From positions 1 to 64,000 of the forward strand of contig NZ_NUGT01000015.1 of the NCBI RefSeq assembly GCF_002574545.1: a stretch of DNA of 64,000 nt, in the 5' to 3' direction. The notes under the pieces were generated by a model, which saw only the letters and a program-made list of their open reading frames with translations, was not told the DNA's origin and ran no database searches. Position numbers and translations under genes: made by a program. This DNA is from Bacillus sp. AFS055030 (GTDB taxonomy: Bacteria > Bacillota > Bacilli > Bacillales > Bacillaceae_G). Position 1 is the stretch's first letter, and the number at the start of each line of letters is the position of its first letter. This document shows, in pieces, positions 19,508 through 39,566 of the stretch.

Positions 19508-19922
19508 TCATCATTTCAAATGTTCTGTAAGCCATGTTCTGTACCATTCGCACTTCAACCGGCTCTCGCCTCGTACTACTAGGTGGTAATCATCTATCTA
19601 CAGAATAATCTGTCCCTTTCTCAGTTCAATTCCTTTGAAAGGATTCCCCTACCATAATTTGGGTTTCTCGCTCGTGGGGTTTACCGCGTTCCACTCCTCT
19701 CATTTCTTCGAGGACTACGTCACTGTGGCACTTTAAAGGTAGTAGAACCATATCCTAAAATAGGACTTAGGTCCGTTCCCTGCCGTTAGCTGATTTCACA
19801 GCTACCCTATCTTATGACTTCGATAGGCACGAACACTACAGCCATCGCAGGACTGTGCGAGCATGGACTTTCCTCAACAACGTCTAGCGTTGCAGCGATT
19901 ACCCGAACATATTGAAACGAAC
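19508..19922 (-). ncRNA. rnpB: RNase P RNA, Bacillus type (class B)
   Basis: The catalytic RNA that removes 5' leaders from pre-tRNA. On the minus strand the conserved landmarks appear in order: GTTCGGGTAATCGCTGC at the 5' end, GAGGAAAGTCCATGCTCGCAC (CR-I, key residues GAGGAAAGUCC), GTGCCACAGTGACG, GTGGAACGCGGTAAACCCC, GAGCGAGAAACCCAAAT, and the 3' ACAGAACATGGCTTACAGAAC. Overall length of about 415 nt and the B-type elements match B. subtilis rnpB, as does the place between gpsB and ypsC. The 5' and 3' ends are set by the P1 pairing (GTTTCAATATGTTC region with GAACATTTGAAAT) and are accurate to a few bases. Confidence 0.97.
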
Positions 19923-36094: not shown

Positions 36095-36478
36095 TTACTT
36101 AACAGTACCTGCAATTTCTTTGCCAATCATTTCGACAATCTCATTTGCATCATTTAAAATAGCAATCTTTGGTTCATGTTGATCCAGTTTCTCTTCCTCT
36201 ACCTGACCATATGCAATAATAATAACTTTGTCGCCTTCTTGAACCAGTCTAGCTGCTGCACCATTAAGACAAATTACACCACTACCACGTTTTCCTGGAA
36301 TAACATATGTCTCAAGTCGTGCACCGTTATTATTGTTTACAATTTGAACTTTTTCATTTTCAAGTACATCAACAGCATCCATTAAATCTTGATCGATTGT
36401 AATACTTCCAACATAATTTAAATTAGCTTCTGTAACCGTAGCTCTATGAAGTTTTGCTCTCATCATTGTGCGAATCAT
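36095..36478 (-). CDS. panD: Aspartate 1-decarboxylase proenzyme PanD
   Basis: A 127-residue pyruvoyl enzyme that makes beta-alanine from aspartate. Self-cleavage at Gly24-Ser25 in NYVGSITID produces the pyruvoyl group. [14 protein letters not shown] and [13 protein letters not shown] (Arg and Tyr of the active site) and [16 protein letters not shown] are family signatures. It is the last gene of the pan operon, 26 bp after panC. Its supply of beta-alanine matches the pantothenate ligation by PanC. Confidence 0.97.
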
Positions 36479-36504: not shown

Positions 36505-37350
36505 TTATATAGAAATAATAATATTATCGATTAGGCGAGCATTAGAAAACTTTACTGCCAACGCAATAATTACTTTTCCATTTATTTTATTTAAAGGCTT
36601 TAAATCTGGATATGAATAAATACTTACGTAATCTACAGTTCCAGATGTTTCGCTTTGTATTGTAGAAATAATATTTTGCTTAAGTTGATCTGGATTTAAT
36701 TGCCCATTATTTATATCATCAACTGCTTTTTGTAAACTTTTATAAAGAACAGGTGCTTCTTGTCTTTCTTTTTCTGTTAAATAGACATTTCTAGAGCTTT
36801 TGGCTAATCCGTCTTCTTCTCTTATAGTTGGAACTGGATTTATTTTTACAGGAATATTAAAGTCTTCAACTAAACCTTCAATAACTGCAACTTGCTGAGC
36901 ATCCTTTAATCCGAAATATGCCTGATCTGGTTGAACAATATTAAATAATTTTGTTACGACTAATGCAACGCCATCAAAATGACCGGGCCTTTTTTCACCA
37001 CAAAGGACGTCTACTCGTTTTGTTACTTTCAAATTAGATTTTAATTCATTTGGATACATTTCTTCAACTGTTGGATAAAAGAGGCAATCTACACCAGCAT
37101 TTAGTGCAATTTTTTCATCTCTTTCAAAGTCTCTTGGATATCGATCAAAGTCTTCATTTGGGCCAAACTGAGTCGGATTAACAAAAATACTTAATACAAC
37201 GATATCATTATTTTTTCTAGCTTCTTCTAATAATGATGCATGACCTTCATGTAAAAAACCCATTGTTGGAACAAATCCAATCGTTTTATCATTTTTTCTG
37301 TGAATGTTTAATTCGTTTCTTAAATCCTTTATCGTGTGAAACACTTTCAT
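36505..37350 (-). CDS. panC: Pantoate-beta-alanine ligase PanC
   Basis: A 281-residue ATP-dependent ligase (pantoate + beta-alanine + ATP to pantothenate, via pantoyl-AMP). The nucleotidylyl HIGH-like motif is [14 protein letters not shown], followed by [31 protein letters not shown] and AKSSRNVYL. Its ATG overlaps the panB stop as ATGA, so translation is coupled. Between PanB and PanD in the operon it completes the pathway. Confidence 0.97.
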
Positions 37351-38189
37351 TGCGAACTTCCCCCGTATAATGCCTTTAACTGTTCTTCTTTCATTGTAAA
37401 CGAATGTTTAGTATCAGGAAATTGTCTTGTTTTAACTTCTTGTACATATGAAGCAATTGCATTTTCAATTGTTGTTGATACATTCGCATACTGTTTAACA
37501 AACTTTGCTACTCGACCAACGCCATATGTTATTAAATCATGATAAACAAGTACTTGACCATCTGTATCTACACCTGCACCAATTCCTATTGTTGGAATTG
37601 AAAGATCCTTAGTAATATCCTTTGCAATTTGTTTTGGAACACATTCAAGTACGATTGCAAAAGCGCCTGCTTCTTCACATTTTTTTGCATCGTTAAATAA
37701 TTTCATTGCACTTTCTGAGTCACGTGCTTGCACTTTATATCCACCTAAAACACCTACAGATTGAGGAGTCAATCCTAAGTGAGCTACAACTGGTACTCCC
37801 GCAATTGTTAATGCTTTAATCACTTCTAAAACATTCTCATCAGCGCCTTCAACTTTAACAGCATGCGCATCACCCTCTTGTATAATGCGACATGCACTAC
37901 GTAATGCCTCTTCTTTTGAAAAATGATAAGACATAAATGGCATATCCGTCACAATAAATGTATTTTTTGCCCCGCGCTTAACAGCTTTAGAGTGATGAAC
38001 CATGTCATCAACTGTAACCTTAATTGTAGAATCATACCCTAGGACAACATTCCCAAGTGAGTCACCGACTAAAATCATATCTACTTCACTTGCTTCTGCT
38101 AATAATGCTGAAGGGTAATCATAAGCTGTAATCATGACGATTGGGTCATTATTTTGTTTCATGTTTAAAAAATCTTTTGTCGTTTTCAT
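37347..38189 (-). CDS. panB: 3-methyl-2-oxobutanoate hydroxymethyltransferase PanB
   Basis: A 280-residue TIM-barrel enzyme, the first step of pantothenate synthesis (ketoisovalerate + methylene-THF). Motifs: [33 protein letters not shown] (Asp, Mg ligand), [18 protein letters not shown] and [23 protein letters not shown] lies just upstream. The operon starts here, behind a ~245-nt leader with an intrinsic terminator and an alternative antiterminator. Confidence 0.97.
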
Positions 38190-38435
38190 CTTTTTTCCTC
38201 CTTTTAAATGAAGAGGAAATGGGGGCTACAATAAAAAACCTTTGCTCTTAATTTAGAACAAAGGAAAATTGTAAACCGTCTCATTCCTCTGTCCCAGTCC
38301 TTAAAGGATCAAGGCAGACACATTTTTAAAATTGATTTTTTTAAACCTGGTGTAGTTCTTCTTAGGATACTAAAGTTTGATTGACCCTATTCAGATACCA
38401 CCCATGAAGCATCCACGTAAGTCGCGACCCTTCCA
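38190..38435 (-). promoter_or_regulatory. panB leader RNA with attenuator architecture
   Basis: An untranslated leader of about 245 nt. A terminator (38232-38264) ends before the panB ribosome binding site. Upstream GGGACAGAGG (38286-38295) can pair with CCTTTGTTCT (38255-38264), the 5' arm of the terminator, over 10 bp including G-U pairs: an antiterminator. That GGGACA is itself tied into another hairpin, TGTCTGCC...GGGACA, around TCCTTTAAGGA. Further 5' is a hairpin GGATGC/GTATCT with loop TTCATGGGTG. A pan RNA motif upstream of panB is known in Bacillota, and this may be a member; I cannot check its consensus. The ligand is unknown. Confidence 0.6.
38232..38264 (-). terminator. Conditional terminator in the panB leader
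   Basis: CCTTTGTTCT and AGAGCAAAGG pair with loop AAATTA and are followed by TTTTTTATT on the minus strand, before panB rather than after a gene, so it is likely regulated. Confidence 0.7.
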
Positions 38436-38441
38436 ATACAG

Positions 38442-38469
38442 TTTATAGTAAGAATAGCAATTAAGTAAA
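38442..38469 (-). promoter_or_regulatory. Probable promoter of the pan operon
   Basis: TTTACT (38464-38469), 16-bp spacer and TATAAA (38442-38447) on the minus strand; the predicted start is near 38435. Confidence 0.5.
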
Positions 38470-38517
38470 GAAAAAACTTGGTATTATTTACAAATATACG
38501 TGACAATTATACAGCAA

Positions 38518-38556
38518 TAAAAATAACTCTCTTTCAATCATCAAAAGAGAGTTGTT
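38518..38556 (-). terminator. Terminator downstream of birA
   Basis: AACTCTCTTT and AAAGAGAGTT form a stem around a TGATGATTG loop with T-rich flanks. It separates the birA unit from the pan promoter. Confidence 0.75.
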
Positions 38557-38570
38557 TTTGTTTGTATACA

Positions 38571-39566
38571 TTATTTATTAAACGAAATATCTGCAGAATA
38601 GATAGTATGAACATTACCTAGGTGATCTTCAATCAATAATTGACCTTCATCAGTAATTCCAATGGCATTACCTACAATTTCTTCTGTTAAAGTCGTTGCT
38701 TTTATTTGTTTGCCTAACGAAATTGCATAGCTTTCCCATAAAATTTTAATCGGTTTAAATCCTTTTTCTAAAAATATTTCATAGAACTTTTCAAATTCAA
38801 CTAAAATAGCTTGAATTAAACTAGCTCTCATAAAGGTTTGTCCTTTTTCAATACGTAATGAAGTTGCGATATCTGACAGTTCTAATGGGTAATCTTCTTC
38901 AACTTGATTTACATTGATTCCGATACCAATGACAACGCTTTTAATGCAATCAGCGTCTCCTTGCATTTCAGTTAAGATGCCACAAACTTTTTTATGATTG
39001 ATTAAAATATCATTCGGCCATTTAATATTTGGATGTAAACCGGTCACTTTTTCAATTGCTGAAGCAATGACTACAGCCGTTAATAATGTAAGTTGAGGTG
39101 CTACTCTTGGTGAAATAGCTGGTCTAAGGATCACACTCATTGCTATTGCTTTTCCATCTGAAGTTAACCAATTTCTTTGTAATCTACCTCTACCTAGTAA
39201 TTGACGCTCAGCCAAAACAATTGTGCCTTCAGGAGCATCATTTAGTACCAATTCATTAGCGATTGTTTGAGTTGAATTGGTTTCTTCCTGGTACACGACA
39301 TTTCTGCCAAATTTTTTCGTTTCTAACCCAAGTTGAATATCTGTTGGAGTTAATCGATCAGATTTGCCTGTTATTTTATATCCAAGTTTCCTAACTGCAT
39401 CAACTTCAATTCCTTCGTCTTGCAATTCTTTCATGTATTTCCATATTGCAGTACGTGAAATTCCTAATTCATCACTTAAAAATTGACCTGATAAATATTC
39501 ATTACTATTTTCTGTGAATAATTGTATGATTCTTTCTTTTACTTTTGAAGCCAATTTATAAACCAC
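38571..39566 (-). CDS. birA: Bifunctional biotin-protein ligase/biotin operon repressor BirA
   Basis: A 331-residue protein. The N-terminal ~60 residues are a winged helix (LSDELGISRTAIWKYMKEL), followed by the ligase: GRGRLQRNW (biotinyl-AMP loop), KWPNDILINHKKVCGIL, and VVIGIGINVNQ. The C-terminal SH3-like domain ends the protein. It activates biotin to biotinyl-AMP, loads it on carboxylase subunits and represses biotin genes when substrate is scarce. It overlaps cca by 28 bp, so both are translated from one mRNA. Confidence 0.95.
   Translation of the reverse strand: MVYKLASKVKERIIQLFTENSNEYLSGQFLSDELGISRTAIWKYMKELQDEGIEVDAVRKLGYKITGKSDRLTPTDIQLGLETKKFGRNVVYQEETNSTQTIANELVLNDAPEGTIVLAERQLLGRGRLQRNWLTSDGKAIAMSVILRPAISPRVAPQLTLLTAVVIASAIEKVTGLHPNIKWPNDILINHKKVCGILTEMQGDADCIKSVVIGIGINVNQVEEDYPLELSDIATSLRIEKGQTFMRASLIQAILVEFEKFYEIFLEKGFKPIKILWESYAISLGKQIKATTLTEEIVGNAIGITDEGQLLIEDHLGNVHTIYSADISFNK

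Follow-up and report, generated by a model that had tools for sequence, protein, structure and literature searches.

The pan RNA leader of panB in Bacillus sp. AFS055030: a conserved terminator/antiterminator and a long-range helix of a candidate two-stage off-switch

Background

How would the RNA leader in front of the pantothenate synthesis genes of Bacillus sp. AFS055030 control their expression, and which of its pairings are kept in relatives? The minus strand of the window (the whole stretch of 64,000 nt analysed here) carries birA (38571-39566), the leader, panB, panC, panD and a gene for a dinG-type helicase, in this order (Table 1). The 3′ end of panB and the start of panC overlap by 4 nt, so translational control of panB could reach panC. 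The closest named relatives of PanB come from Gottfriedia (99, 98 and 92% identity) and from one 'Bacillus sp.' (99%), which makes a Gottfriedia (family Bacillaceae) the probable host. The window also holds a bacterial class B RNase P RNA (19523-19910, minus strand, 310 bits).

The original prediction, made from the sequence of the leader, was that of a pan RNA combined with an intrinsic terminator and an alternative pairing in the layout of a transcription-attenuation riboswitch. The describers of the pan motif (Weinberg et al. 2010) suggested a dimeric protein as its binder (PMC2864571). Pan has been listed in leaders in PMC4342826, PMC4634765 and PMC5670726, two of them before panB, and panB and panD have been described among valine-induced genes (PMC2743287). 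As of 2022 CoA was without a validated riboswitch class, according to PMC10043782. Searches of open-licence PMC papers gave no experimental study of the ligand or of the expression platform of pan, and a word search of PMC7266159 and PMC11477304 gave no mention of the motif.

Table 1. Features of the pan locus in the window
Feature	Coordinates	Strand	Basis and details
pan motif RF01749	38285..38404	-	cmscan, full model 1-92; bulged-A hairpins P1 and P2
P1 hairpin	38348..38404	-	cmscan alignment; end counted from sequence
P2 hairpin	38289..38317	-	cmscan alignment and folding; CTGCC..GGGACAG, two bulged A's
Switch strand	38286..38295	-	GGGACAGAGG; P2 3′ arm and conserved tail, 5′ strand of the antiterminator
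LR 5′ strand	38268..38290	-	AGAGGAA 38290-38284 (proximal); 38277-38276 and 38274-38268 (distal)
Intrinsic terminator	38239..38264	-	10-pair stem followed by a T-run (38238-38233); 5′ arm 38264-38255
LR 3′ strand	38212..38232	-	38232-38224 (distal); TTCCTCT 38218-38212 (proximal)
Shine-Dalgarno of panB	38194..38202	-	AGGAGGAAA; sequestering hairpin possible with 38219-38212 (ends determined by inspection)
panB	37347..38189	-	NCBIfam TIGR00222, 374 bits
panC	36505..37350	-	NCBIfam TIGR00018, 375 bits
panD	36095..36478	-	NCBIfam TIGR00223, 195 bits

Methods

The taxonomic order of the window genome is called 'the order' throughout. The 212 pan loci studied are a part of all matches, namely the best-scoring ones and a hand-picked rest, which usually has a single locus per genus within the order. 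Start codons were assigned by rule at 211 of the 212 loci; L141 is without a start and stands outside all start-dependent counts. Since the terminator finder is loose (it calls a hairpin somewhere within 320 nt at 208 of the 212 loci), only terminators located before the start codon were counted. The finder overlooks the long terminator of L030, and the terminator of L079 is hidden by a mis-assigned start. For a further set of named genomes 80 were fetched, of which 78 had a recognised pan, and 13 duplicates of earlier loci were removed; a terminator was called at 64 of the 65 loci and 63 were used for the long-range test.

The swap test compares the pairing of each tail with its own partner and with the partners from other loci. 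Its long-range version requires at least 15 nt before the Shine-Dalgarno sequence (SD), which left 89 of 93 loci in the order, 64 of 92 outside it and 63 of 64 in the further set. An initial dereplication by 4-mers left 6 loci only.

The leader alignments, the column counts and the tests of SD accessibility and of the SD hairpin are based on an older locus list split by protein pattern, and L064, L128 and L133 in the alignments are loci from outside the order; all claims about clades are based on loci re-sorted by taxonomic order. Fixed columns were counted in a MAFFT alignment of 42 of 56 leaders (39 of them from the order) after 14 longer leaders had been dropped. Another alignment comprised 54 leaders, obtained from 71 by dropping 8 long or odd and 9 near-identical ones. 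For the SD-hairpin test an anti-SD motif was present at 121 of 135 loci, which were dereplicated to 56.

Results

An ordinary pan RNA precedes panB

The identification of the panB leader as a pan RNA was borne out by a full-model match to Rfam RF01749 with 63 bits (gathering cut-off 36.2), the single match in the source genome. The cmscan alignment of P1 and P2 has the two conserved bulged A's that interrupt the tandem stems, and the RNA lies upstream of panB-panC-panD, as is typical of the family. No other Rfam leader (T-box, PyrR etc.) exceeded its gathering cut-off in 38190-38520. P1 had been overlooked originally, and the hairpin said to lock GGGACA is real and is P2 of the Rfam model, extending from CTGCC to GGGACAG in a register slightly different from the one predicted. 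The loop region of P1 has 32 nt in the window versus 4 in the consensus; among 13 members of the genus the pan match is 120-121 nt long in 10 and 90-92 nt in three. The window copy is an ordinary pan member. The likeness to RF01749 covers the whole model but ends with it: the model stops at the tail, and the terminator, the antiterminator and the long-range helix (LR) described below lie outside.

A pan match at E ≤0.001 was present in all 19 genomes from the family, in 163 of the 199 sampled from the order and in 152 of the 398 sampled phylum-wide. One genome (G003) has two pan copies (L002 and L020) with a panB gene after each.

Terminator and exclusive antiterminator in the window

The terminator before panB and its 10-bp alternative pairing were found as stated in the original prediction. 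The switch strand GGGACAGAGG (38295-38286) is complementary to the 5′ arm of the terminator, CCTTTGTTCT (38264-38255), at 10 of 10 positions, three of them G-U, and one extra A-U pair adjoins the ten. P2 and the antiterminator are mutually exclusive as both use GGGACAG within 38295-38286. For the window alone, 5 of 2000 shuffled versions of the downstream leader contained an ungapped match of equal quality to the 11-nt tail, and 14 of 2000 shuffled terminator 5′ arms paired equally well. According to folding, RNA cut after the 5′ arm of the terminator adopts the antiterminator fold (-19.1 kcal/mol), while for the complete terminator RNA the predicted states are balanced, with -24.5 kcal/mol for P2 plus terminator versus -22.6 kcal/mol for the antiterminator. 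Since GGGACAG is shared between P2 and the antiterminator, stabilisation of P2 should lead to termination, i.e. to the OFF state.

One might suppose that the terminator is constitutive, serving birA or stopping spurious transcripts, and that the alternative pairings arose by chance. Loose pairings are indeed frequent in this AU-rich leader: a less stringent count in the window copy is not specific, with 6 of 10 shuffled arms also forming at least 6 pairs in the MFE structure. However, birA is equipped with a terminator-like hairpin of its own (38553-38525), and the conservation and the swap tests presented below speak against this explanation, which we consider highly improbable.

An expression platform common to pan loci

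The visible expression platform had been regarded as an addition of this copy, a view that did not survive the comparison. Pan loci in general have such a platform: a terminator precedes the start codon at 185 of the 211 (93 of 102 within the order, 92 of 109 elsewhere). When the 13-nt tail is matched without gaps over 150 nt, its best complement is part of the 5′ arm of a terminator at 138 of the 212 loci, these arms making up 11.7% of that sequence. Single loci give a weak signal, the tail being better than all 20 shuffles of its own downstream sequence at 70 of 212.

Swapping of partners outside the order weakened the antiterminator from -7.84 to -6.81 kcal/mol (n=92), a difference reached in 0 of 2000 permutations both there and after dereplication to n=77 and n=47; control segments were not significant in the same comparison (473/1000 and 342/1000). 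An ungapped version with all 185 loci gave 15.17 for own and 13.55 for swapped partners, the best of 2000 permutations being 14.16. A clear compensatory change replaces A-U by G-C at the tail position GGGAC[A/G]G. Inside the order the pairing is strong (-10.12 kcal/mol versus -2.72 for the linker control) and its covariation slight (2/2000 for undereplicated loci, 224/2000 at n=53 and 1389/2000 at n=13); the further set was in line with this (334, 430 and 831 of 2000). The sequence of the antiterminator is conserved inside the order, so swapping costs little there.

The absence of covariation in relatives had been named beforehand as the result that would speak against the antiterminator; covariation is present outside the order at all three levels of dereplication and hardly detectable inside it. 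The attenuation layout is supported, with a terminator and an exclusive antiterminator that are both conserved in relatives. The riboswitch label attached to it is unproven, a dimeric protein having been the proposal of those who described the motif.

A long-range helix uses the same strand within the order

Reading the leaders of the order revealed that the tail (AGAGGGATGAA..., AGAGG(G/A)ATGAA...) has a complement in TTCAT.TCCTCT, a stretch immediately before the SD and, in the window, 9 nt away from it. This second pairing of the tail, with 38232-38212 next to the ribosome-binding site, had escaped the original prediction. LR is often extended by a further helix, with the result that the terminator is enclosed. 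It is not significant in the window alone (176/2000 shuffles), and support for it in the window comes from the order to which the window belongs.

The swap test for the order gave -16.22 kcal/mol for own and -13.16 for swapped partners (n=89, 0/2000), with 0/2000 also at n=52 and n=12 after dereplication; the P1-P2 linker and the upstream flank, used as controls in the order, were not significant. The further set behaved likewise (-16.31 versus -13.85, n=63, 0/2000; dereplicated n=27, 0/2000), except at the strictest dereplication, where n=10 gave 157/2000, and one control segment reached 11/1000. Outside the order the swap test for LR was negative (267/2000). LR ranked in the best 5% of its own shuffles at 75 of 99 panB loci of the order versus 9 of 77 outside. 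An impression that LR also occurs outside the order came from the early split by protein pattern, which had put many Bacilli panB loci among the 'others'; after re-sorting by order LR was undetected there.

Counts in fixed columns of the 42 leaders gave 30 double-change cells versus 17.9 in shuffles (sd 3.3, 0/500), and the covariation score of LR was reached in 0 of 500 shuffles. Paired cells amounted to 78.2% versus 75.4% shuffled (2/500) and to at most 63.1% when the partner was slid; sliding it by -1 also gave 30 double-change cells, but with 56.6% instead of 78.2% of cells paired. The number of LR pairs with a double change was equalled in 39 of 500 shuffles. The eight outer pairs alone gave 29 double-change cells versus 17.6 (0/500), with the caveat that 113 of 500 shuffles had as many pairs with a double change and that the slide by -1 gave 29 cells as well. 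One position of LR is U-A in 20 leaders, U-G in 6, C-G in 5, A-U in 2 and unpaired in 9. With the 54-leader alignment 261 outer cells were paired, the best of 5000 shuffles reaching 259. RNAalifold applied to these 54 leaders returned P2 only, probably owing to the variable register of the long-range strands. Judged by these sequence comparisons, LR covaries within the order of the window and is undetected outside it. An order-wide LR that shares the switch strand is a new part of the pan leader.

Nine loci of the order lack a called terminator, L030 and L079 (see Methods) among them. LR is kept without a terminator at L067, L107, L120 and L124, where 11, 2, 0 and 1 of 2000 shuffles were as good, and at L082, which has a weak sub-threshold hairpin (7/2000). 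L125 has neither LR (1768/2000) nor a terminator. The independence of LR from the terminator at the terminator-less loci argues for a role in translation. The LR test was negative at L084 (1858/2000), which has a compact 6-bp version only. The compact leader of L084 carries an SD-holding hairpin at the position of the terminator, with a 5′ arm complementary to the tail, and might represent an intermediate between the two platforms.

The long-range helix and the ribosome-binding site

The proximal strand of LR contains CCTCT (within TTCCTCT 38218-38212), which is also able to pair with the SD. The SD hairpin has a mean of -9.1 kcal/mol and does not covary (791/2000), and it could thus be a by-product of pairing with the purine-rich tail; pairing of the tail with that 13-nt stretch is stronger (-11.2 kcal/mol, 0/2000). 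Proximal LR was stronger than the SD hairpin at 46 of 56 loci. Folding predicts an SD that is mostly paired with or without the tail: its mean unpaired fraction of 0.244 falls to 0.188 when the tail is blocked, versus 0.238 in the control, and accessibility drops by more than 0.2 at 10 of 135 loci (control 6/135). The in silico block of the tail lowers SD accessibility consistently but slightly. Release of the SD by LR is plausible in the light of these models, and a second, translational platform in the order is likely but unproven. P2 and LR overlap by only about 2 nt, which counts against the putative step in which an occupied pan would withhold the tail from LR.

These data bear on whether the transcription stage alone matters, with LR a non-regulatory aid to structure or mRNA stability. 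Terminator and antiterminator are a common property of pan loci, LR has been detected in the order only, and the predicted effect on SD accessibility is small, all of which suits such a view; the retention of LR where the terminator is absent and the position of its 3′ strand beside the SD in the aligned leaders do not, and we regard it as unlikely.

Discussion

A proposed two-stage off-switch worked by one strand

The reading that we prefer, with a probability of about 0.6, is that pan RNA acts in cis to switch off pantothenate synthesis, a single strand operating two expression platforms. As long as pan is free, the antiterminator would form in the nascent RNA and transcription would continue; the longer and stronger LR would then capture the tail and hold CCUCU off the SD, allowing panB to be translated. 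A ligand, either a metabolite of the CoA pathway or a protein that reports one, would hold P2 and the tail and thereby let the terminator form, and in any read-through mRNA with an occupied pan the SD would be paired with CCUCU. Outside the order the terminator/antiterminator stage only is supported.

The same platforms could be worked by a dimeric protein in place of a metabolite, to which we give a little less than an even chance. Two similar, simple hairpins with bulged A's fit the proposal made by the describers of pan (PMC2864571), and TRAP of B. subtilis is described as controlling attenuation as well as a structure that sequesters the SD of trpE (PMC12288461). Nothing in the leader comparisons made here speaks directly against a protein, but two similar aptamers are likewise described for NAD+-I riboswitches (PMC10043782). 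Alternatively, pan may be a riboswitch that senses a metabolite, either CoA or one of its precursors, and whose single 3′ strand in the order works the antiterminator and then the SD-releasing LR; we consider this less likely than not.

Relation to known systems

The closest mechanism is that of the B. subtilis trpEDCFBA leader, where TRAP is reported to cause attenuation and, in the read-through RNA, an SD-sequestering structure (PMC12288461); in pan, unlike the trp leader as described there, both stages would depend on a single RNA strand, and homology is not claimed. Dual-platform riboswitches (Barrick and Breaker 2007, PMC2258182) likewise attenuate transcription and translation through one sensor, but their ribosome-binding site is described as part of the 3′ side of the terminator, whereas the terminator (38264-38239) and the SD (38202-38194) are separate in the pan leader. 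The NAD+-I riboswitch resembles pan in having two similar aptamers before cofactor genes, the second overlapping the ribosome-binding site (compare L189, L193 and L194 below); it differs in its genes and in having a known ligand, and the likeness is one of description (PMC10043782).

Pan targets outside the order

First genes other than panB or panC, picked by rule, follow pan at 82 loci outside the order, and 60 of them match DUF2520. The 82 also include 7 ECF S components, 6 members of the bile-acid symporter family, 3 BioY, 3 OPT and 2 biotin ligase matches, two of the three BioY matches being counted among the ECF matches as well. The symporter-family genes (6 Pfam matches) follow pan at L134, L136, L140, L173, L190 and L206; for L134 and L190 the best NCBIfam match is PanS with 298-300 bits, below the cut-off of 400. 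ECF S genes at L189, L193 and L194, from three genomes, have no terminator before the start; GGGAGG of the tail stands where an SD would be, an in-frame AUU or AUA follows after 8 nt, and the first in-frame AUG is 12 codons further in. This arrangement suggests that pan may repress translation directly at these loci. BioY-type S components were found after pan at L147 and L167 (Pfam) and at L209 (similar protein start); their substrate may be pantothenate and not biotin, as the analogy with PanU of B. subtilis suggests. OPT-family transporters follow pan at L156, L178 and L179 and possibly carry a CoA precursor. A biotin protein ligase of the BirA type is the first chosen gene downstream of pan at L063 and L176.

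Conclusions

The conserved expression platform gives a likely direction of control, folded pan being off, and a read-out for screens of ligands or proteins. Since the second pairing lies beside the ribosome-binding site, reporter constructs that end at the terminator would leave out half of the control; the terminator-less relatives L067, L107, L120 and L124 offer translation-only versions. Genes for DUF2520, PanS-like and ECF S proteins, those of the BioY family included, widen the pan regulon from synthesis to uptake. The orphan motif pan is turned into a testable two-stage off-switch.
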